This document shows, piece by piece, positions 102 through 39,524 of a DNA stretch of 64,000 nucleotides (its first letter is position 1; each line of letters starts with the position of its first letter). The position numbers were made by a program, and so were the translations under genes. The stretch comes from Symbiodinium natans (lineage: Eukaryota; Sar; Dinophyceae; Suessiales; Symbiodiniaceae). The notes beneath the pieces are model-generated. The model was not told the origin of the DNA. It saw only the letters and a list, made by a program, of their open reading frames with translations, and searched no databases. Where the stretch lies: positions 38,501-102,500 of the forward strand of contig CAJNDS010001435.1 of the NCBI GenBank assembly GCA_905221605.1. The letters run 5' to 3'.

Positions 102-3100
102 GGCAGTTCCAAGACCTGGCACAATGTGGGCACCCTGAATTTTCCAAAGATCCGCCGTTCTGTCGGGCTTTGGGGCTCCTTAAAGAACCCAAGGCCAAAA
201 ACTAATCCCCAACATGCGCAGCAGCCACATCTCTCAGAGGGTTTCTTCACTTCGCCACCCGCTTAAACACTGGAACATGGAAGGCCCCCCCCTCCCCCGT
301 GGTAGCCCTAAACCCTAAACCCTACACCCTACACCCTAAACCCAGTGCTGGAAGCCTGGCGCTCCAAGACCAAGAAGCACATGGCTCACGGAGGATCTAG
401 GGGGGAGTGATTGGGAACCCTAAACCCTAAACCCTTTTCGCCACAGGACTCCTCTTCCCTAATCCCCTAAACCCTACCCTAAACCCGAAACCCGAAACGG
501 GTGAAGAGGAGTTTGGGGGAGCAGCTTTGCCCAGTGTCGCTCAAGGACACACAGTGGTGATTCCAGCAATCAACGCAGCATCGCTGCTACATATCCATGA
601 AGAAAAGGGGGCCGGGAGCCGAAAACTTGCCACACCATGAGTCCTACCATGTGCACCACGACGATGAGATCAGGCTTTTAGCATGAGTACGCTTCCATAC
701 CCCCCCCCCCCCACCTCCTGCAGTTTGTTGTTGAGAATGGTGCCGTCTGATTTTTCATAGCAAGCACCAAGGAAGTCCCACCAACATGGACCCTTGCTGA
801 GCTGCTGAGCTGTCTGAGCATCCACCAGTCAACGGCCTGGTGCAACCCTCCGCAAGCCATGTCTTTGCACCCCCCACTGAGACATCCCAAGTTCCATGTT
901 GACACACTGAGACACGCACAATCTGCCCCAAGCATGGGGGCAAGCCTGCAGGGGCGGTGCAGTGTTGCTGACGGTGGCCATGAAGGGAGTGGCGGCCTGC
1001 CTTGGCGTTCCAAACTTTCAAGCTGTTCCGGAGGAACTCGAAATACATCCCCCACCATTTAAGAAGGTCTGGCTCTGAGACTTTCCTAGCAGGGGGAGGG
1101 GCATACGTGGGCATGACACGCATTCCATTTGATGCAGCATGACATGAACCTGAACCAGAAGTGTGCTCCTAGGATTCAGGGCAACAAGTGTGCCTTCTCA
1201 TAGACTTCAAGATGGGCCACCACAGCGTGAGCCAAGAACTCCAAGCTGAGGGCCACAAATTTAGGGCTTAGGGTTTAGGGCTTAGGAACCCTCCAACACC
1301 GAGGTGCTGCCGTGCTGACGCCGGTTGGCTATAGTTGAGCTGGCGCGCCTGCCCTGGCAAGACGATCCGTCAACTTCCCTAAACCCTAAACCCCAAACCC
1401 TCCGTGTTGTGCCGTGTTGTGCTCCCATTCTTGGCTCACCCGTATTTGGAGCGACATTGCTACATGGTGGCCAGCTTGGGCCGTCAGTTTTTTTTTTCAG
1501 AACCTTGAGCCATCCTCAGCCCTACACTCGAAAACCCATGTATGGGCTGACGATAGTGCCCCCTTCCTCTAACAGTCCTTACTGGGGATTATAATAGAGG
1601 GCACTACAATCCCTATTCAGAACTGTCAGTATAAGGGTGAACATCCCAAACTATATAGGTCAATTTTGGAATATAGCATATAGCCCCCTGGCCCCCCCCC
1701 CCCCCAGCTTTGGCTGACAAACTGCTCAATTTCCATTTCCTCAACTCTGAACCCTCCTCTCCCCGCCTAAGCATTTGAGCCCAAAAGAACTCCAAAAGAA
1801 AGGCTTTTTGCTCTACTAGGTTCAGATGCCTTGCCGATTCATGTATGCCCCAGCAGCGCCCACGCCGGCGCCGACAGCTAGAACAGGTGCCGCCTGATCA
1901 AGTTAGCCGCTCGCACTTAGCGCAATTAGGAACCGCAAGAGGCATCATGGTCCGCAGTCACCCCAAGCTTCAGCACATTGGCTGGCAGGGAGTGTGTGCT
2001 TCACTCACAGCCCATGGAAGGATTCCGAGGGGCGCTACCAGCTCAGAGCGTGGTTTCTCAGGAAACACCTTTGTGGAAGTGGGCTCAGAAAAAGTCAGTG
2101 TGTCCTAGGCCTAGTTGTCACAAAGCCGCATGCCTGGAACTGGAAAAACATGTTGAAGCTCTCTGCTTCCGCTTTCTCATCTGGCAGGCCCCTTGCCCCA
2201 CCAGTTGCCCGAAAGGCCTGCGCCACCGCAGCACAACAACCTGGACCATGGGGGAAGCCGAGATGGTCACTGGGCCAGAGCCCCATTTGCTTGCGGTACA
2301 GAGCTTCAACATAGGGTGATGGATGCTTTTTGGGAGATCTTGGGAGGCCTTAGAGATTGGTCGAAGTCTGAATAGGTGATCGCTGCGTTCTACTGCCCCT
2401 TGCGTGGAGACCACGTCGAACTAACCACCCATTGCGAAACATCTTCTTGCTGTCGCATCACACCACGCACAGGCCACACAAAGCCCAATCCTTGGATTCA
2501 CAGTGCGTAAGGTGATTCAGATGCTGCAGTAGACTATGCCGTGCTGCGTTCGGTCTTTGGCGGATGTGACGTGTTAGCAGCTGGAGTGGATCTGAGAGAA
2601 AACAAGAACCAGAACTCGGTGCCCCTCTGTACTTGAATAGGCAGAGCCAGTTCAATCTTGACCCCCGACCTTCCCAGACGATCCTAACCTCAAAGACCGC
2701 AAGCCCAGCGACGCAATCGGGGTGGCAATGAAAAGGCAGAGGTTGGTATCCTTGGCTCGCATCAGAAGATGGGCCAAAGCGTCACAGTCCTAAAAGAGAG
2801 AAGCATCCTAATGCCGCCATGCCTTCAACCAATGCATGGAAACTCAAAACATTTGAAGCCATAATGCTACATCCATGTCATCTTTTCTGCCAGTGTAGGT
2901 CAAGGTTGGTCACTTGCTGAAGCCGCCCGGATGCGAAATTCAGGCAAGGCCATGTATAACACACCTCGCCGCAACAGCAGGTAATGTAGTTTGCTGACTA
3001 GTATTGCCCCCCCCCCACCCGCCCCAAACAGTAGGAACCCCCAGTTGGTGGGGAGCCTCTGAACAAAGATAGTAGCAGCTGAGCCGTGTTCTACTGCAGT

Positions 3101-3144
3101 TTCACTTCAGCTTGGTTTGCATGGAGGTCAGGGCTGCGCGTTCT
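102..3144. other. Region without a supported gene
   Basis: I find no exon here that I can defend. Short telomere-type tracts occur at about 305-345, 416-436, 468-500, 1258-1288 (G-rich) and 1379-1402. Poly-C runs are at about 702-712 and 1690-1705. A degenerate family B palindrome lies near 1543-1650. Open frames around 678-1120 and 1845-2414 overlap on both strands without splice context or recognisable domains. Confidence 0.5.
1543..1650. mobile_element. Degenerate family B palindrome
   Basis: The core CTAACAGTCCTTACTGGGG and the right end ATAAGGGTGAACATCCCAA match family B (see 3638-3701). The left terminus is eroded and no target duplication is visible. Confidence 0.5.
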
Positions 3145-3611
3145 AAACCCTAAACCCTAAACCTAAACCCTAAACCCTAAACCCTAAACCCTGGGTGCGG
3201 AATGGTGTTGGATTTTCCGCCTGTGCTTCTCTGCAGCACATCAGCACGGCGGACTTTGAGTGCAGGCCCTGACGAGGCAGAGTTTTGCCCACGTCCGCCC
3301 TCGCACCAAAAGCCCACCTGTGTGCTCTGCATGCTCTGCAGCACGGTGGACCTGTTGAGTGAGGGGGCTTGGCTGGGGAGTGTGTGCCAAAACAGGCCCG
3401 GCCGTTGAACCTCCGTATTTCTTTGTGCAAATGGGATTCTGGCTCGCTTCTTCTTGGCCCAGAATGTCCGTGGAGATGGGGTTCGACAGAGGCAGCTTGA
3501 CTGGGGTATGTGGGGGTATCTGGGGGGCATGTGGGGGGTATCTGGGGGGGCATGTGGGGGGTATGTGGGGGGCAGAGCCCTTCCAACACCATTCCGCACC
3601 CAGGGTTTAGG
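3145..3611. mobile_element. Inverted-repeat element capped by telomeric heptads
   Basis: The left end is seven CCCTAAA-type units running into CTGGGTGCGGAATGGTGTTG (about 3189-3208). The right end is the reverse complement of that sequence (about 3581-3604) followed by GGGTTTAGGG. The heptad cap therefore forms part of the inverted termini. The interior of about 370 bp includes a G-rich minisatellite (3504-3573). Long frames cross the interior on both strands, but none looks like a transposase. It could be a non-autonomous DNA element or a snap-back repair product. Confidence 0.6.
3504..3573 (+). repeat. G-rich minisatellite
   Basis: Alternating GTATCTGGGGGG and GCATGTGGGGGG units repeat about six times. 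The G5-G7 runs could form quadruplexes. It lies inside the inverted-repeat element at 3145-3611. Confidence 0.7.
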
Positions 3612-3637
3612 GTTTGGGGTTTCGGGTTTGAGATAAG

Positions 3638-3701
3638 TTGGGATGTTCTATACTAACAGTCCTTCATTATTCTACCCCCAGTATAGGGGGGAACATCCCA
3701 A
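3638..3701. mobile_element. Family B palindromic element with 8-bp target duplication
   Basis: The termini TTGGGATGTTC and GAACATCCCAA are perfect inverted repeats and enclose CTAACAGTCCTT. The 8 bases before the element (GAGATAAG, 3630-3637) are repeated exactly after it (3702-3709), which is the signature of a cut-and-paste insertion. At 64 bp it is one of the shortest copies. Eight-base duplications are typical of hAT-like transposases, but the TIR does not match a hAT consensus I recognise. Confidence 0.8.
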
Positions 3702-3702
3702 G

Positions 3703-4883
3703 AGATAAGAAAGCATCAGGGAGTGCAATGAAGGGGCCATCAGTGGAGCAGGTCCCTACATGTTCGCCCGCGGCAAGAAGAGTTCCGGTACCACAAGCCC
3801 CCACATCCAAAGTGAAGGAAGCCGCAAGAAGCGCAGATTTCAGTGCTCTGCCCCCACTCATCCGGCCGAGCTTATTCTGGAAAGAAAGCCCCAGACCATG
3901 CCTGTTGAGGCAAACGCCTGCCGAACTTCTCGCACACAGCACGGCAAGCAGCCTGGAAAAGCCGAAGCACATCGCCTTGTTACCCTAAACCCTAAACCCT
4001 AAACCCCAAACCCCAAACCCTAATCCTAAACCCTAAATTCCAAATCATCCCCAAAACACGTTTCGTGTTGCAGTACCTTGCAGCCCAGGGTTCACAACTG
4101 CCAGCGCCCGCCCAGCAAAAATCGCAGGAACCTCGGGAACGCTTAAGGTGAATTAGGGTTTAGGGTTTAGGGTTTTAGGGTTTAGGGTTCAGGGTTTTAG
4201 GGTTTAGGGTTTTAGGGGTTTAGGGTTTAGGGTTTAGGGTTTTAGGGTTTAGGGTGTAGGGTCTTAGGGTTTAGGGTTTAGGGTTTTTAGGGTTTATAGG
4301 GTTTTAGGGTTTAGGGTTTAGGGGTTTAGGGTTTAGGGTTTCGAGTTTAAAGGGGTTCTCATGCGACTGGCCAAGGTTTAGCCAAAGCCAGTGACATGAT
4401 GGCGGTCCAGTTAATGGATTGGGGTTTAGGGTTTAGGGTTTGGGTTACCCCTGCCATCTTTGCTCGCGAGTTCAACCCCCGAGCCTTTCCTGTCCTTCGC
4501 CCTGCAAGAGACCCAGCTGATCAAGACGCCCTAAACCCTAAAACCTAAAACCTAAACCCTAAACTCTGAACCCTAAACCCTAAACCCTCTTTCTATTTCC
4601 TTTCTGCGAACAGGCGGCACTTGTTGAAGAAGGGCTTGCGGTCGAAGAACGGGTCGGACTTGCAGGTGCCATGGTCGTTGCCTCGGCAGCAGGGGCTGCT
4701 AGCCTGCTGCCATCCCATCATCCTTTTGCGGGTTTAGGGTTTAGGGTTTAGGGTTTTTTTCCCTCCTGCACAGCTGGGGCGAATCCGCATCGCAGGGCGA
4801 TTTCGAGTCTGTTGGGATCGTTTTGGGTCAGTGCCAGGGTTTAGGGTTTAGGGTTTAGGGTTTAGGGGCCACGACGGCTTCAA
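3703..4883. other. Repeat-rich region without a supported gene
   Basis: Heptad tracts occur at 3982-4036 (C-rich), 4152-4352 (G-rich), 4418-4444, 4529-4586, 4731-4757 and 4836-4866. The interspersed single-copy pieces show no convincing exon. Confidence 0.5.
4152..4352 (+). repeat. Long degenerate TTTAGGG array
   Basis: About 200 bp of TTTAGGG with frequent slips (TTTTAGGG, TTTAGGGG, TTCAGGG). It is one of the longest interstitial telomere-type arrays in the window, and more degenerate than the arrays near 11 kb. Confidence 0.9.
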
Positions 4884-4990
4884 CTAGACCCAAGAGTAAC
4901 CTAGGAATAAAACGGGTGCCCTTTTTGGTTTTCAAGGGGCTTCTACGGGAACCTGAACCCCTCAAAAAGGGAAATGAGGGCCTACTCCTT
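4884..4990. mobile_element. Dispersed repeat, family I (copy 1)
   Basis: GAGTAACCTAGGAATAAAA, then CCCTTTTTGGTTTT and GGGCCTACTCC, recur in the same order at 26887-26996. The ends GAGTAACC and GAGTAGGCC (on the other strand) suggest weak terminal inverted repeats. Confidence 0.5.
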
Positions 4991-7910
4991 TTCCGAGTCA
5001 ACTCGGCAACACAAGAGCCCCACCGACTTCGTAGCTCAACCTGAGGAAGTAATTGCGCTTGTCCAGCAAATGGCAGGCGGATGTTTGATGCAAGTTTGGG
5101 GCAAGGGCGTGGCTTTTTGCGATGCCGGTGCTGGGCTGCACGCTGCGCCGGCTTGCTCAACGAGGTTGGAACGGTTCTTTTAAACCCTAAACCCTAAACC
5201 CAAACCCAAAACCCTAAACCTCAAACCCTGAACCCTAAACCAATGACCGGGCCACGGTTTTAACGTGCACTGTGGCGGGGATCATTCCAAGTGTGGAATC
5301 TCCGACGAGAGATTAGTAGCAAGCGAGGGTCATCAGCTCTTCTCGCGGCAGAAAAAGCAATGCACTCATGAACGCAGCATGTCGCAGCCGCGGTGCTGAG
5401 TTCCTTGAAAGCCGTGGCTACATGTCACTCTTTTTTGCAGGCTGAAGTCTCGTTCGTTCACGGAAATACGCAGACAAATCGTTCCACCAATGAAAGGTGG
5501 CCATGTGCCACCACCCACGGACTCTAGCAAGAGCTACCGACCAATCACAACCAAACCAATATGCCAAGCAGCAATCTTCCCGGCTTCCTTGGCTACAGAG
5601 TGAGGCAGGACTCCGATGTTGAATTGGGTGGGAAAAAAAGAGGGCTCAGGATAGAACTTCTAGCATGAGGGAAATAGGGTACTGTAGTTGAACCTGTTCC
5701 CGAACTCCCTTTTAAGAAGCAGCAAAAGGCAAATTGAGGGTGGGTGACTTTTGGTGTAGAAGTCGCGGGGAACGAATTCGGGACATGCAGCGTCAGTTTG
5801 CGCACAGAGAACCCACGACTTCGTACAGCCTGAGCCCTGAACATGCTCCGAGGCGTCTTCCCAACGCCCTACAAGCAGACACACCTCGCAAGCCTCATAA
5901 GAAAGGTTTAGGGTTTAGGGTTTGGGGTTTAGGGTTTAGCATAGTAGCCTCAAAAGATGTTTACGCCCAGGGATCCGACCACACAGCCGGCCCAGCCTAC
6001 TTCCGCAGCACAGGACGCCAAGACCAGGACCAGACTGCCTTGGGTTTAGGGTTTAGGGTTTAGGGTTTAGCGTTCAGGGATTAGGGTGGATCCCTAAATG
6101 CGACAACCGCCTTCTGACCCCATCCGCTCTAAAGTCAAAACGGCTTTTCGGCTCGGGGAGAAGGACCTGGCAGCATCTTCAAGTCTCCCGTAGTGTTCCG
6201 AACCTTTGGGCCAGCTGGTTTAGGGTTTAGGGGGTTTAGGGTTTCGGGTTTAGGGTTGAGGGTTTAGGGTTCCCCCGCCCCCCTTTTGCCCTTCCTGCGA
6301 AAGCTTACAGCTTAGAAAGGTCTGGGAAGTGTGCTCGGTGCTTGACATCCGGCTCTTCACCTGCAAGCAAGTCCGTGTAGCATGTGCCCAAGCAGCCTCG
6401 ACTTTCCTTCACGGAAGAACCTCCTGCCAGAATTGCCTATTTCCTTTAATTCTAGGCAAGCTGCCCCTCATCGTCCTGGGACCTTCCAGGCTGCAACAGC
6501 AGCCAGAGTTGTGGAGCTCTTGACCAGACAAAGGGATTGAGCCGACATGATGCAGCAACAGGTGTAACCCCGCATAAAACTACATTCCCCGAAGTCGCTC
6601 AACATGGACGGCCATTCTGGCATCAACACGCACGGAGTTCGTATAGCCCGAAAGCCCTGCGCTGCCCATTCTTCAGGTTCACATTTGGATCATGCCCATG
6701 GAAATTGAATCTAACTACTCGGTTCTTACCGCAGAGTGCGCGGGACCTCGTCAACACAAATCAGCATCGTTGGCATCACTACTTCTGCCATCTAAGAATC
6801 TATGCCTCTACCCCGACATGTCGTCACAGAAACGGGAACGATAAGAACGCCGGGTATAAAGTAGAGCTCCTTGCTCTTCGACGCCATCGGGGCGCTTACC
6901 TTCGGGAAGGCTGTACTGCAGTCGCACTGCAGCCTCTCTGTCTCCGGAAACCCTAAACCCTTTTGAAGCTGGACTTGCTGACTGCCAGACGCCCTAAACC
7001 CTAAACCCTAAACCCCCAAGCCACTGAAATCCTCTGAAAATCCCAAGGTGGCGTGTTCGGCTGTGGCGATGCGGCCAAGCGACGTGTTGCGACCAGCTTC
7101 GGAAAAACTGCCACACGCACTGCGTCGAAGCGGTCTTTCCAACCTGCACTGGCGGGGCTGTTTCCGAACATGGGGCACTTGGTTTGGGGTGCCTAGAATC
7201 AAGATGAGAGTTTCGTGGGGGGGGGGGGGGGTATGTAGAAAATCAAGACAAGAGTTTGGGGTTTATATGAAGGGCACCCCTGTTTTGCCCACTCGGGTTA
7301 ACAATTGGAAAGGGAGTCGCCCCCGTACAAAAGTCGGAAGCCGGCCGGGGTTGCCAATTTTCAAAGGTCGAATCTGGCTTCTGATTCATGAATCCTGAAG
7401 ACCTCTATGTGCCACACCTTGGAGGCCTCCTCTGGTTTAGCCGAGGGGCAAGTTTCTCCGCAACCGGTGGGATGGTGCTCCCAGCGACTGTGCGGACTAT
7501 TGCTTCCAGAGATGGGCTGGCTTGGCTACTGTTGCTCTGGCTGGAATGACCAGTTAGAACACGTACATGCAAGACAGTGGCAAACGCACAAGGCCTGTAG
7601 TGGGGCGCATCTCATGCCCAGGGTACGAAAACTCTCCTGCCCTCTACATCATGACATGGATTTGGGTTGTGAAACAAATGGACATCGTCTTAGGCTTCGG
7701 GTTGTAGGGCAGCCGAGTCCTCTCGCCTTGCTGCGTCTTTCCCCCTCTTGGTGCGCTCACGCAGGTGATGCCTGTGAATGGATAGGAGTGGCCGGGCAGA
7801 GCCAAAAGGGTCAAAACGGTGTGATGCTGGGACTTTTCTCTTCTTGGCATCAAGCCACATCCGCTTCTGTGAACAAGGTGCTCAGGATTGACTCAGACAC
7901 ACAAAGGTTA
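4991..7910. other. Region without a supported gene
   Basis: Heptad tracts lie at 5180-5243, 5905-5940, 6043-6085, 6218-6272, 6948-6960 and 6990-7016. The tract at 5905-5940 is bounded GT...AG on the plus strand. A G-homopolymer is at about 7215-7230. Open frames at 6537-6956 and 7407-7910 lack recognisable domains and splice context; I leave them uncalled. Confidence 0.4.
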
Positions 7911-11017: not shown

Positions 11018-11110
11018 AAGGGTTTAGGGTTTAGGGTTTAGGGTTTAGGGTTTAGGGTTTAGGGTTTAGGGTTTAGGGTTTAGGGTTTAGGGTTTAGGGT
11101 TTAGGGTTTA
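11018..11110 (+). repeat. Clean TTTAGGG array
   Basis: About 13 nearly perfect heptads in G-rich orientation. It faces a C-rich array of similar length at 11271-11368 across about 160 bp. Confidence 0.95.
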
Positions 11111-11226: not shown

Positions 11227-11272
11227 ATACTCCCCTAAGAACCTTGAGAAAAACAATCTTTTTGATATTAAA
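11227..11272 (+). repeat. Dispersed repeat shared with 16801-16853
   Basis: TATACTCCCCTAAGAACCTT followed by an A-rich then T-rich stretch ending GATATT recurs near 16803. It lies directly before the C-rich telomeric array, so it may mark an insertion boundary. Confidence 0.55.
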
Positions 11273-11368
11273 CCCTAAACCCTAAACCCTAAACCCTAAA
11301 CCCTAAACCCTAAACCCTAAACCCTAAACCCTAAACCCTAAACCCCTAAACCCCTAAACCCTAAACCT
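11271..11368 (-). repeat. Clean CCCTAAA array
   Basis: About 13 heptads in C-rich orientation, the last few with slips to CCCCTAAA. With 11018-11110 it forms a facing pair, the arrangement expected of a telomere-telomere junction. Confidence 0.95.
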
Positions 11369-28900: not shown

Positions 28901-30401
28901 GTCGCGCCCGATTATGTGTTTGGCTGTTTTTGTAGAACTCCATAGACAAGAAGAAACAAACAACAATACACCCCAAATCAACACTCGGATGCTTTCCAGA
29001 ATGATGGCAAACAAGAACATCTTTCTCAGCGGTGTAGTAGACCCCGTGCCGAGCTTGTTGTAATCGCCCGGACCCTAAACCTCCTAAACCTCCTAAACCT
29101 CCGAAACCTCCGAAACCTCCGAAACCTCCTAAACCTCCTAAACCTCCTAAACCTCCTAAACCTCCTAAACCTCCTAAACCTCCTAAACCTTGCGGCCTCT
29201 TCATCCTCCTCTGTTGTGATCGATAGGCGGAACGGCCACTCGTCTTCGCAGGTCGTGGAGGCCGCAGCAGAGGGCGTCAACTGCGCAGGCGGTGGCTTTA
29301 GCATTTAGGGTTTAGGGGGTTTAGGGTTTAGGGGGTTTAGGGGGTTTAGGGGGTTTAGGGGGTTTAGGGGGTTTAGGGTTCAGGGTTTAGGGGTTTAGAG
29401 TTTAGGGTTCAGGGTTTTTCTGGCTTAGAGTTGCACGCGACGAGAGCTGGAGAGATGCGTGAGGGGAGCCGACAATTGCGTATGGCGCTGGCTTTTCTCG
29501 CCCCGAGGACGTTCTGCGAGGGGCAAAGGTTTTTTTATTGCTTAAGAACCCCCAAAATAGAAATGTTCTTCCTTATTAAGGATAATATCGGGATTCTCAT
29601 TTTCTATTCTTTTGGTTCTTAAGCAAATAGTAGCTATGGGTGGTAAGCCTATGGTGCCGACTGAGCTCGCGAAACGAGGGGGCAACAAAGTGGGCCCTAT
29701 AAACCCGAAACACCTAAAAACCCTCAAGCCAAAAAAACCTAAATCCGAAGAACCCTCAAAAACCCAAACCCTCACATCATCTCACATCTACACACGTCTG
29801 CCGTGCATCTGAAAAGTGCCTGGCAGGTGCCCCAGATGAAGACCTCGCCCTCCCGGCAACGCGACTTGCAGGTTCGTGGGTAGTTAGAAGTAGGTTTATA
29901 AGCAGGGTAACTTTACTTATCACCCCATTTAGGGGTACTTATCACCCTAGTTGATGTAGGTATAAGTATGGTACCTATACTTATAACTCTACCTAGGGGG
30001 GTACTTAGAACTCTACTTATCAGTACCCTTATACTACCCATACGAAACTCCAAGTAAGGCCGACGGTGGCTTCTAAGCCAAGGCACGGAGTGAAAGCTCC
30101 GATGGCTATCCGTGCGGGTGCCTCAGCTTCGGCCATGCTCCAAAACCCTAAACCCTAAACCCTAAACCCTTGACCCTTAACCCTAAACCCCGGCGGTAAG
30201 AGTTGTTTGCTGCGGGTGCTTTTATTTTTCCAACCAGAAGGGCTCCTCCCACCTTCTAACCTCAAGAATCCCTGAAGCTTGCATGAACCTCCTCCCCCTC
30301 CTTGCAGATGGAGTGCCGTGGTCTTCACAGGTCGCGGGCTCACTGACATTGACCAACATTTTGCATTCGGACCCATCGAGTCGGCCTCGGGAGGGTAAGC
30401 C
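25886..30401 (-). CDS. Ankyrin/F-box-like gene, copy 2 (multi-exon locus)
   Basis: Second copy of the gene at 13174-17389, from exons at 30290-30401, 29189-29295, 28226-28267, 28039-28098, 27533-27611, 27304-27401, 27065-27119, 26425-26486 and 25886-25983. In the segment from 28267 to 26425 the phases join without a break, giving an ankyrin protein that runs from LPEEPMVRKASQLDR through QFMERNGFTEVNTPR to YPLHLAAQQGDPQLVSELL and GADPQKRTSIGRRAVDVA. Donors are a mix of GT, GC and probably GA. The F-box-like exon follows. The gene may begin further upstream (exon near 31.15 kb). This copy seems the healthier of the two. Confidence 0.7.
26425..26486 (-). CDS. Ankyrin-repeat exon, copy 2
   Basis: After GATGGAG| it reads TSIGRRAVDVAAAANQFGSH, homologous to 13905-13993. 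The 3' limit is uncertain. Confidence 0.65.
26596..26763. repeat. Facing heptad tracts
   Basis: A C-rich tract at 26596-26620 and a G-rich tract at 26727-26763, both in the intron after the ankyrin helix exon. Confidence 0.85.
26887..26996. mobile_element. Dispersed repeat, family I (copy 2)
   Basis: GGGAGTAACCTAGGAAGAAA, CCCTTTTTGGTTTTAAGGGG and GGGCCTACTCC match 4884-4990 in order and spacing. Confidence 0.55.
27065..27119 (-). CDS. Ankyrin-repeat exon (helix pair), copy 2
   Basis: 55 nt encoding DPQLVSELLREGADPQKR. It starts with GA completing Gly from the preceding exon and ends at AG|GAGC as in copy 1. Confidence 0.75.
27304..27401 (-). CDS. Ankyrin-repeat exon (first half), copy 2
   Basis: 98 nt from GGTTCAAG| to CAACAGG|GTACC. 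It encodes NGFTEVNTPRPGKRFSLHR and then TESLYPLHLAAQQ, an ankyrin first helix. The frame is intact, unlike copy 1. Confidence 0.8.
27533..27611 (-). CDS. Basic helical exon MPG-RRE, copy 2
   Basis: 79 nt from ATATAAG|AACATAGC to GGAAAG|GCCCG (GC donor). It encodes MPGERREQIREKQRERVLQF and joins in phase to NGFTEV. It is rich in Arg/Glu, with probable coiled-coil character. Confidence 0.7.
27612..27720. other. AT-rich intron segment
   Basis: TATCATATTTCCATATTG and similar short pentamers; no coding. It lies just upstream (coding sense) of the MPG exon. Confidence 0.5.
27764..27820 (+). repeat. TTTAGGG array in intron
   Basis: Eight G-rich heptads next to the family A element at 27822. Confidence 0.9.
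27822..27930 (-). mobile_element. Family A palindromic element (copy 3)
   Basis: Right end GTTAACCCTCCATATG with interior TTATAAGGGAATCCTATTAT, reverse-oriented to the 30.9-kb copy. The left terminus CATATGGTG is degenerate. It lies in an intron of copy 2. Confidence 0.65.
28039..28098 (-). CDS. Conserved exon C, copy 2
   Basis: 60 nt from CTGACAG| to CCCAGG|GTTCC, encoding QLDRFMSQVCDSCAVLFTQ. It joins in phase on both sides (S before, E after). Confidence 0.7.
28123..28206 (-). repeat. CCCTAAA array in intron
   Basis: C-rich tract with CCCAAAA variants at its left, between exons B and C of copy 2. Confidence 0.9.
28226..28267 (-). CDS. Conserved exon B, copy 2
   Basis: 42 nt after AAGCCCAG|, encoding DDGLPEEPMVRKA, with donor GCCA|GCGAAC. 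It is in phase with exon C. Confidence 0.65.
28308..28460 (+). repeat. TTTAGGG arrays in intron
   Basis: Two G-rich blocks (28308-28367, 28372-28460) split by AGGGATGAAAGG. With 28123-28206 they form a back-to-back pair. Confidence 0.9.
28461..29070. other. Long intron part, no exon recognised
   Basis: Poly-C near 28745-28762. Plus frames at 28643-29063 were not accepted. Confidence 0.35.
29071..29188 (-). repeat. 9-bp telomere-variant array CCTCCTAAA
   Basis: About 13 copies of CCTCCTAAA or CCTCCGAAA, i.e. the telomeric heptad with two extra bases. It abuts the acidic exon, and on the coding strand begins at its putative donor AG|GTTTAGGAGG. Confidence 0.95.
29189..29295 (-). CDS. Acidic exon A, copy 2
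   Basis: 107 nt from GCTAAAG| to GCAAG|GTTTAGG. It encodes PPPAQLTPSAAAST, then TCEDEWPFRLSITTEE and DEEAA. Both bordering introns are telomere-type repeats. The end phase does not match exon B directly, so an exon is missing or the donor differs. Confidence 0.65.
29296..29420 (+). repeat. TTTAGGG/TTTAGGGGG array in intron
   Basis: G-rich on the plus strand, therefore C-rich on the coding strand of the gene, ending directly at the acceptor of exon A. Many units have extra G. Confidence 0.9.
29535..29633. mobile_element. Family D palindromic element (copy 2)
   Basis: TTGCTTAAGAACCCCCAAAA at the left pairs with TTTTGGTTCTTAAGCAA at the right. Confidence 0.75.
29863..30055. mobile_element. Family C palindromic element, long copy
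   Basis: ACTTGCAGGTTCGTGGGTAG and CTACCCATACGAAACTCCAAGT in inverted orientation. The interior of about 150 bp holds repeated CTTATCACCCCA/TTAGGGGTACTTAT blocks, suggesting internal duplication or nested insertion. Confidence 0.7.
30143..30190 (-). repeat. CCCTAAA tract
   Basis: Six C-rich heptads with CCCTTGA variants. Confidence 0.85.
30290..30401 (-). CDS. Upstream conserved exon, copy 2
   Basis: Acceptor GATGCCAG| then GLPSRGRLDGSECKMLVNVS and an acidic end HGTPSA. It is homologous to 17269-17389. The donor is not clear. Confidence 0.55.
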
Positions 30402-33592: not shown

Positions 33593-34418
<826 letters not shown>

Positions 34419-38135: not shown

Positions 38136-38205
38136 AGCCCAAGAGTGACAAATCTAAAGAATCCCGGTTTCATGGGCAGTTGATGGGCACTCCTCATCCT
38201 TGCAG

Positions 38206-38286
38206 GCAGCAAAGTGCGCGAAAAGCATGCCAACCTGCTGCTTCAGCAGATCTTATGCGATCATTTCAAGGGGAAGACCGTTCCAG
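38206..38286 (+). CDS. Exon 1 (internal) of the 38-kb gene
   Basis: CATCCTTGCAG| and TTCCAG|GTAAGG are consensus splice sites around 81 nt. It encodes SKVREKHANLLLQQILCDHF then KGKTVP, and ends in phase 1. Confidence 0.75.
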
Positions 38287-39524
38287 GTAAGGACGGGTGC
38301 TTTTTGCTAAAAGCTTGCGGCAAAGTCTATAAATGACTCTTCCATTTGGCACATCTTTTGACTGGGAGTGCCGCCCACATGTGGGAGGTGCTACGGGTAT
38401 TTAAGATAGGTGACATTCACATCTGCTTGAGCCCTCGAAGCCGTCAGCTGCAGAATCTGTACTGGAAGACCCAGCCCATCTGAGGCGTGCGCAGGCACCA
38501 CGCGGGTGATGTCGCCGTGGAGAATCATCTGCCCTGATGCCTGAAAGGATCCCTACTTCAACGAGCTCTGTAGAAGCAAAGCTCTGAGCCTAATACCCTA
38601 TGACTGCATTCCTACACGGGCAGACCATGCCGAGGTACGCCCTCACTCCCGGGAGGGGGGTTCCCGGCTTCACAACCCCCCTTTTTTATGGTTCCCTACT
38701 ACCCCCGCCTAGGTTTGCCCCTTAAATAGCCTTGATTAGGCCCATGTATCCCGAAAGAGCCTTTTGGGGGTGGGGGGAACCTAGGGCCTAGGGGGGGTAG
38801 GGTAGAGGGGGCTTCACAATAGGTTTATGGCACCCACATAGCTGGTCGAACAGCTCAGCAGGTCTCCGACAGTCTGAACTCAATCGTGCGCCCCTCCTCC
38901 TGCCCTTCTTCAGGTGCTCGGTTCAGTGCAATCGGTTTAGGGTTTAGGGCTAGAACTGCCTCATCGAACTCGCATGTCTGACCATCCAAGCCAGCCTGGC
39001 CACAGGAATCAAGCTCAGGTAAGCATGACATACCCTAAACCCAAAACCCAATACCCAAACCCCTGACATGACTTAGCAAGCAAGGCCACATGACCAAACC
39101 AGTTCCGACCCAACATTTGGCCAACAGGAGTTCCAAAACAGCCCCAAGGCAAGCCACCCTAATCCCTAAACCCTGAACCCTAAACCCAAAACGCAAACCC
39201 TACCCTAACAATAAACCCTAAACCCTAAACCCCTCCAAACAAACAGGGACCTCCTCGAAGCCCTCGCGCAGCTGTGCCGCAAAAGCTGCGATGGCCATGG
39301 CAGCTCCTTGGTCGGCAGGTTGTGCCACCCGCAAAACCCTGGTAGGGTTTAGGGTTTAGGGTATAGGGTTTAGGTAGCTGGCAGCTGAGACTGCGGCTTA
39401 CCGACTAGAAAGATGCCACATTTCCCCACGAGTCCTCATTGCTAAACTTTTCACTCGCGTCATCCAAACTCTGCTCCAATCCATCCAAGGGACAGCAGCA
39501 GTCTTGCTCGCAGGCTGGAGCTAG
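38206..39524 (+). CDS. Hypothetical protein gene with telomere-repeat introns
   Basis: Plus-strand gene with exons 38206-38286, 38432-38484, 38548-38634, 38914-38934, 38954-39018, 39247-39341 and 39385-39524, all joining in phase. The product starts before 38206. Visible segments are SKVREKHANLLLQQILCDHF, DPYFNELCRSKALSLIPYD, NCLIELACLTIQASLATGIK, DLLEALAQLCRKSCDGHGSS and VLIAKLFTRVIQTLLQS. It is mostly helical with scattered Cys and no clear signal or membrane segment. I do not recognise the family. The stop at 39522 ends the last frame; a further exon beyond is possible. Two introns (38935-38953 and 39342-39384) are almost wholly telomeric heptads. That all seven exons chain in phase makes the model credible, though RNA is needed. 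Confidence 0.65.
38432..38484 (+). CDS. Exon 2 of the 38-kb gene
   Basis: From CTGCTTGAG| to CTGAG|GCGTGC (GC donor), 53 nt, reading ALEAVSCRICTGRPSPSE after joining. The phases fit both neighbours. This is the least certain exon of the chain. Confidence 0.45.
38548..38634 (+). CDS. Exon 3 of the 38-kb gene
   Basis: From CCTGAAAG| to GCCGAG|GTACGC, 87 nt, 29 codons in phase 0, reading DPYFNELCRSKALSLIPYD and then CIPTRADHAE. Confidence 0.6.
38914..38934 (+). CDS. Micro-exon 4 of the 38-kb gene
   Basis: After a strong pyrimidine tract and CTTCTTCAG| there are 21 nt (VLGSVQS) before a telomeric insertion. If the insertion is not spliced out, the frame hits TAG at once. Confidence 0.45.
38935..38953 (+). 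other. Putative 19-nt intron made of telomeric heptads
   Basis: GTTTAGGGTTTAGGGCTAG, two heptads plus five bases, starts GT and ends AG. Removing it restores frame between VLGSVQS and NCLIEL. Alternatively the true acceptor is the AG at 38953 and the intron is 38635-38953. Confidence 0.45.
38954..39018 (+). CDS. Exon 5 of the 38-kb gene
   Basis: 65 nt ending AAGCTCAG|GTAAGC. It encodes NCLIELACLTIQASLATGIK and an Arg shared with the next exon. Confidence 0.7.
39156..39232 (-). repeat. Degenerate CCCTAAA tract in intron
   Basis: C-rich heptads ending about 14 bases before the acceptor AACAAACAG| of exon 6; may serve as pyrimidine tract and branch region. Confidence 0.85.
39247..39341 (+). 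CDS. Exon 6 of the 38-kb gene
   Basis: 95 nt from AACAAACAG| to AACCCTG|GTAGGG, 31 full codons, reading DLLEALAQLCRKSCDGHGSS then LVGRLCHPQNP. Confidence 0.7.
39342..39384 (+). other. 43-nt intron composed of telomeric heptads
   Basis: Starts GTAGGGTTTAGGGTTTAGGG, continues with TATAGGGTTTAGG, and ends TAGCTGGCAG. About 33 of 43 bases are telomere-type. Removing it joins Ala in phase. Without splicing the frame meets TAG within the first heptad. Confidence 0.6.
39385..39524 (+). CDS. Exon 7 of the 38-kb gene with stop
   Basis: After GCTGGCAG| the frame reads ETAAYRLERCHISPRVLIAK then LFTRVIQTLLQSIQGTAAVL and stops at 39522-39524. Confidence 0.65.

Follow-up and report, generated by a model that had tools for sequence, protein, structure and literature searches.

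Intron-like telomere-type heptads in a 64-kb Symbiodinium natans window and probable heptad-bearing introns of an HSP90 gene

The 64-kb stretch of DNA analysed here (the window) is rich in telomere-type TTTAGGG heptads, two tracts of which, at 38935-38953 (19 nt) and 39342-39384 (43 nt), had been proposed as introns of a seven-exon gene. Both tracts are most probably interstitial telomere-type repeats of the sort that litters this genome, and neither is likely to be an intron with the proposed boundaries. The heptad repeat would then account for their GT...AG ends and their stops; the seven-exon frame would be the product of a free choice of GT-AG pairs, obtainable almost anywhere in the window. 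Elsewhere in the genome, heptad-bearing introns, as delimited by a conserved reading frame, interrupt a constrained gene (HSP90) and differ between its close paralogues.

Telomere-type repeats and the two proposed introns

Exact TTTAGGG/CCCTAAA heptads occur 498 times in the window (G+C content 51.3%), while 16.4 are expected and none of 100 shuffles reached as high a count. They form 147 clusters on both strands (66 plus, 81 minus) at a density of 78 exact heptads per 10 kb; tandem telomere-type units are thus present at internal sites above chance, as in interstitial telomeric sequences. TTTAGGG has been reported for dinoflagellates. At least one heptad is present in nine of 13 readable 300-base samples of the window's own contig. 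Twenty stretches of 10 kb, two flanking the window and the others from further contigs of the assembly (759.4 Mb, 2543 contigs), contain 2592 heptads in total, a density that is skewed upward because the contigs were drawn from repeat matches; four of these stretches hold 2500-5000 N. Three of the 20 (L013, L019, L026) have no exact heptad, and the remaining 17 have 52-279 each; the contigs of these three do bear the telomere-type repeat elsewhere, and L013 contains open reading frames of 693 and 666 amino acids. The window also possesses a (GTA)n array of 820 nt (33598-34417, about 274 units) and two places where telomere-type arrays of opposite orientation stand as a pair, one at 11019-11110 and 11269-11367 with 158 nt between them, the other at 29074-29190 and 29304-29418, 113 nt apart and with a 9-nt variant unit.

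The sequences of the two tracts are exactly as the preliminary description gave them, TTTAGGG-type and with GT...AG ends (Table 1). When units of the TTTGGGG type are included, which makes the measure permissive, telomere-like bases account for 95% of the first and 79% of the second tract, and 39343-39374 is a tandem array inside the second. The repeat sequence GGGTTTAG has both GT and AG, and therefore a usable GT...AG pair can be framed around 79 of the 86 analysed tracts of at least two units so as to keep an open frame; in the opposite-strand reading, under an alternative setting, such framing is possible in 11 of 91 tracts. The ends of 38935-38953 are those of a spliceosomal intron, but they are inherent in the repeat. 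The stops vary with the number of units: among the 147 tracts, the 54 with a single unit each keep two frames open, and of the 64 with at least three units 55 leave no frame open. That retention of a tract gives an immediate stop is true of the first one only in the frame chosen in the preliminary description; stop-free stretches at 38823-38981 and 38941-39066 cross all and most of it, respectively.

Table 1. Features at the window locus, with window positions; a slash marks an exon-intron border
Feature	Positions	Strand	Remarks
Two-unit TTTAGGG tract, proposed 19-nt intron	38935..38953	+	GTTTAGGGTTTAGGGCTAG; interstitial telomere-type repeat, splicing unsupported
TTTAGGG-type tract, proposed 43-nt intron	39342..39384	+	GTAGGGTTTAGGGTTTAGGGTATAGGGTTTAGGTAGCTGGCAG; interstitial telomere-type repeat, splicing unproven
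Alternative 319-nt intron taking in 21-nt exon and tract	38635..38953	+	Sole frame-keeping join from 38635 to exon 5
Candidate intron, if a gene exists	38635..38913	+	AG/GT...AG/G flanks, 279 nt, 4-nt end repeat
Rival reading: exon enters tract, stop from tract	38914..38940	+	TAG at 38938-38940
Putative exon 5	38954..39018	+	Coding-like codon usage, 2% tail; no relative found
Candidate heptad-rich intron	39019..39246	+	CCCTAAA on sense strand, 228 nt, 4-nt end repeat
Putative exon 6	39247..39341	+	Weak coding-like codon usage, 7% tail
Putative exon 7, ends in TAG	39385..39524	+	Weak coding-like codon usage, 6% tail

The proposed introns are flanked as caatcg/GTTTAG..CTAG/aactgc and accctg/GTAGGG..GGCAG/ctgaga; the donor is preceded by CG and TG, the next exon starts with A and C, and the exact end repeat is 1 nt in both cases. 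When in-frame boundaries were sought within limited ranges at both tracts, three short GT-AG choices and one 319-nt intron, hence four options, were found across the first, and nine GT-AG pairs, the 43-nt one among them, kept the frame across the second. A single longer intron ending at 38953, which had been mentioned as the alternative to the 19-nt one, is therefore possible as 38635-38953, and with several other in-frame boundaries at hand the 19-nt intron was rejected as the simplest reading. No matching protein was found that would require the removal of either tract, and at both of them other boundaries keep the frame, nine choices being available at the second.

Removal of both tracts does turn 38914-39524 into one frame free of internal stops (run from 38915), and the exon at 38548-38634 joins in phase, so that this part of the proposed in-phase protein stands; its value as evidence does not, since equal or longer frames arise in 79 of 80 window segments. 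In a search that permitted a maximum of six GT-AG introns, each 19-600 nt long, the longest spliced frame in 38200-39524 was 752 nt, and a frame of at least this length was reached in 40 of 40 dinucleotide shuffles and in the same 79 of 80 window segments. In-phase splicing is hence uninformative, and frame continuity was rejected as coding evidence because nearly all null segments match or exceed 752 nt. When other tracts were "spliced out" in the same manner, the joined frame was at least as long as that of the 19-nt case (best frame) in 52 of 79 and that of the 43-nt case in 38 of 79. By coding score, the tracts of the two proposed introns ranked 16th and 6th among 78 tracts under one setting and 17th and 15th among 80 under the other, in nulls that, like the spliced-frame and tract-by-tract ones, include the locus under study; at the second tract the top-scoring pair was 31 nt long rather than the proposed 43 nt.

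Evidence for a gene at 38.2-39.5 kb

The corrected 163-residue protein (without exon 2) matched no Pfam family at E values up to 10 and none of 191 candidates in the protein database at the same limit. The initial query, which carried a nine-residue wrong-frame tail after exon 6 and was without exons 2 and 7, had no match in the PDB; in the 759-Mb genome the same query (exons 1 and 3-6 with the tail) retrieved its own locus and two matches with E values of 0.08 and 0.09. A second (empty) copy of the locus was not among the listed genome matches, the repeat itself aside. An identification of the gene via Pfam, the PDB, the protein database or a paralogue was consequently rejected for want of a match. 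Ten open reading frames of the window yielded no family above its cut-off, and Rfam nothing at gathering thresholds.

Codon usage gives a more differentiated picture. We trained a codon model on 26 segments with 2461 codons in total; it scored the true frame positively in 13 of 13 left-out loci (range 0.08-0.49). Per codon, the putative exons of the window locus scored -0.02 (exon 1), -0.31 (exon 3), +0.09 (exon 4), +0.30 (exon 5), +0.09 (exon 6) and +0.08 (exon 7); the mean of exons 4-7 (0.13) lies inside the range of the left-out true loci. The score of exon 1 is reached by 19% and that of exon 3 by 62% of length-matched open stretches of the window, and these upstream exons look non-coding. 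There may be a short coding stretch around 38.95-39.52 kb, because the codon scores of exons 5, 6 and 7 are matched by 2%, 7% and 6% of such stretches, a finding that counts in favour of the preliminary description.

If a gene spans 38.95-39.52 kb, the tracts would ride in longer introns, or the first would provide a stop codon. The former arrangement corresponds to an orphan gene with a heptad-rich intron at 39019-39246 and the 319-nt intron ending in the first tract, the second tract lying within a 43-nt intron or one of the longer in-frame choices; apart from the 43-nt boundary, it fits our preferred explanation. In addition to the codon usage of exons 5-7, the AG/G flanks of 39019-39246 and 38635-38913 speak for such a gene, as does the existence of heptad-rich introns in an HSP90 gene, and the databases searched may lack relatives of genes specific to dinoflagellates. 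Exon 3 scores as non-coding DNA and exon 1 near zero, neither a protein nor a genome match was obtained, and the frame is shorter than those of almost all null segments; with these points against it, we regard the orphan gene as rather unlikely.

The borders of 38635-38913 read gccgag/GTACGC..TTCTTCAG/gtgctc. Those of 39019-39246 read gctcag/GTAAGC..AAACAG/ggacct (AG/GT...AG/G), and the telomere-like fraction of this segment is 0.50. No other segment of the window locus is as good a candidate for a telomere-repeat intron, and the likeness of 39019-39246 to the HSP90 introns described below is far greater than that of the two stretches originally proposed.

The exon at 38914 might, on the other hand, run unspliced into the first tract and be ended by its TAG, the remainder being 3' untranslated or intergenic. 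Reading on from 38914 indeed halts at 38938, and the preceding candidate intron has AG/G flanks; the codon scores of exons 1 and 3 are those of non-coding DNA, however, and there is therefore perhaps no gene to end. This arrangement is compatible with our preferred explanation of both tracts as interstitial repeats, and we consider it improbable.

Probable heptad-bearing introns in HSP90 and kinesin genes

Introns that contain heptads are found in HSP90 and kinesin genes of this genome (128-279 nt), and the general idea of heptad-bearing introns thus appears to be true at least of one HSP90 gene. Three HSP90 paralogues, L070 (G000:C754:71000-73460), L071 (contig C941) and L072 (contig C41), have aligned coding pieces that are about 89-94% identical, and their intron sets are largely different; heptads are present in four of 11 gaps across the three copies. 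A further sequence considered as an empty-site copy (L073) was rejected as a distant HSP90, presumably GRP94-like, and used as a query only.

The boundaries of the seven L070 introns were fixed by the conserved frame and by a choice among GT, GC and GA donors. The introns measure 68, 128, 279, 144, 116, 207 and 230 nt and contain, in this order, 0, 2, 1, 7, 0, 9 and 1 exact heptads; five of the seven are hence heptad-bearing, and exact units make up 30-34% of two of them. With degenerate units counted, 36% of the last intron is telomere-like, and none of the eight exon pieces contains such sequence. The exon after the intron starts with G in all seven cases, and AG precedes the donor in four. 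Once spliced in this way, the L070 sequence yields a partial HSP90 reading frame that stays open over 1260 nt. Counted over aligned codons, with aligned pieces that overlap by a few bases, it differs from L071 by 79 synonymous and no amino-acid differences in 301 codons, and from L072 by 64 synonymous differences and three changed codons in 277. Because its exons show no amino-acid change alongside 79 synonymous ones relative to L071, the predicted introns of L070 are very likely truly spliced.

At the corresponding sites L071 lacks five of the seven introns, as judged from exon lengths and from aligned pieces that run across the sites; L072 lacks four of these five as well, and its stretch ends short of the fifth site. 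The exact end repeats of the seven introns are, in order, 6, 3, 1, 5, 7, 3 and 9 nt. Two features of break-repair neointrons are thereby found in L070: short direct end repeats in four of its seven introns, and absence of introns from close relatives. Both coincide in three of the five introns missing from L071, which have exact repeats of 5, 7 and 9 nt; among 2529 random donor-acceptor pairs, repeats of at least 5 nt occurred in 0.4% and of at least 7 nt in 0.1%. Intron d/e, which is 144 nt long and has 34% of its length in exact heptads, is absent from both paralogues and has a direct repeat of 5 nt exact, or 10 nt with one mismatch. In a genome search, one gained intron proved to be single-copy, and another was matched, among the 40 of 428 candidates that were scored, by its telomeric part and the edge of it. 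The site of intron f is common to all three copies and heptads are found there in L070 only, an indication that a tract may also enter an intron after its origin.

Exact heptads, whichever their orientation, keep a distance of 22 nt or more from both splice sites in each of the six heptad-bearing introns that were measured (L070 and a kinesin locus). Elsewhere in the genome, such tracts accordingly sit inside introns of conserved genes and away from the splice sites, the splicing being deduced from the conserved frame. From the absence of introns in close paralogues and the short direct repeats at their ends, we infer that some heptad-bearing introns originated when DNA was inserted at a staggered break, telomeric DNA serving as the filler in the way described for interstitial telomeric sequences at breaks. 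We tentatively extend this to the proposal, possible though doubtful, that interstitial telomeric repeats help to create spliceosomal introns: they would be captured at staggered breaks in exons, the splice sites would come from the short direct repeats formed during repair, and the tract would be carried inside the new intron. Intron d/e of L070 would be the type case, and 39019-39246 of the window may be another such intron.

Several structural details of these introns are recorded here as observations. Introns d/e and g have perfect short hairpins (arms of 8 bp and 7 bp) close to their 3' ends, intron c/d contains a 13-bp inverted repeat that might be that of a small DNA transposon, and one tract-bearing intron also has a long (TTC)n run. 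At another locus (L040, G000:C1902, around 104310-104423), exons resembling a Cpn60/TCP-1 chaperonin have telomeric tracts within about 1.3 kb, which are possibly partly intronic.

The kinesin sample comprised 15 loci (21.5 kb), chosen from 98 matches because several matched pieces lie close together in them. It contains three heptads where 167 are expected at the window density, and none of 2000 random matched sets was as low. These loci had suggested that heptads are absent from conserved genes, a notion overturned by L070 with its 20 heptads in 2.46 kb, and the kinesin scarcity is for this reason not counted against a gene in the window. Heptads are present in one of 21 gaps between matched kinesin pieces, namely in L055, where we placed a GC-AG intron that is 130 nt long and includes CCCTAAA three times, its position being set from what we take to be a kinesin motif. 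The shortest placed kinesin intron is 47 nt long, and thus 43 nt is not far outside the range seen. Splice placement was scored in favour of AG/G, so the AG/G trend in the kinesin loci is partly circular.

Against this background, the gene model as originally written, with a GT-AG intron of 19 nt and another of 43 nt, both composed of telomeric heptads, is highly improbable. Its in-phase join counts in its favour. Its introns, the 19-nt one most of all, are unsupported given the missing protein match, the chance frames and the other boundaries that keep the frame equally well; their flanks (CG/G...AG/A at the 19-nt intron) and 1-nt end repeats are unlike those of L070, they are shorter than the shortest placed intron, and they lack the distance between heptads and splice sites seen in every measured intron.

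Comparison with known systems

Ultra-short introns of 15-16 nt in Stentor and 18 nt in Bigelowiella have been reported (PMC12316389, PMC9505925, in the parts of these sources available), and together with those of Trichomonas (23 nt) they fall in the same length range as the proposed 19-nt intron. In Stentor, as far as the available text goes, introns number in the thousands and their branch point lies at a fixed position, whereas the case considered here was a single candidate inside a repeat, put forward from sequence alone. The claim of a near-record intron rests on repeat arithmetic and is removed.

The tracts of the window resemble interstitial telomeric sequences, which are likewise short telomere-type runs at internal sites. 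In the accessible portion of PMC7215372, 31% of the human ones are intronic, their insertion is ascribed to double-strand breaks, and target duplications are described for a few horse loci; introns are also among the sites of plant telomere motifs (PMC3022908, consulted in part). Unlike these known cases, the window reaches the heptad density given above. None of the matches listed from the open-access literature described dinoflagellate introns with telomeric repeats in them.

Repeated introns of dinoflagellates offer a second comparison. The introners of Amoebophrya have direct repeats that span the borders with the exons, joined in some cases by inverted repeats (PMC7789003, the part consulted), and L070 is similar in its direct end repeats and in the inverted repeats of some of its introns. 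As a difference from introners, of the two L070 introns compared with the genome one is single-copy, and the listed matches of the other cover its telomeric part and the immediate edge of it. GC-AG and GA-AG introns, which the available part of PMC11453091 describes for Symbiodiniaceae, were found in the placed loci of this genome as well.

A further parallel is provided by the gained introns of Daphnia pulex, attributed to the repair of staggered double-strand breaks, whose end repeats measure 4-12 bp (PMC4202315, as far as its text was available). The five paralogue-absent introns of L070, three of them with repeats of 5, 7 and 9 nt, are of a similar kind, and one of the five is single-copy in the genome search. 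They differ in that the L070 inserts are partly made of telomeric heptads, while the string "telomer" has no occurrence in the portion of the Daphnia text consulted. Close HSP90 paralogues with differing introns and end repeats offer a concrete, testable case for the source of new introns, and those gained introns that contain telomeric DNA are worth following.
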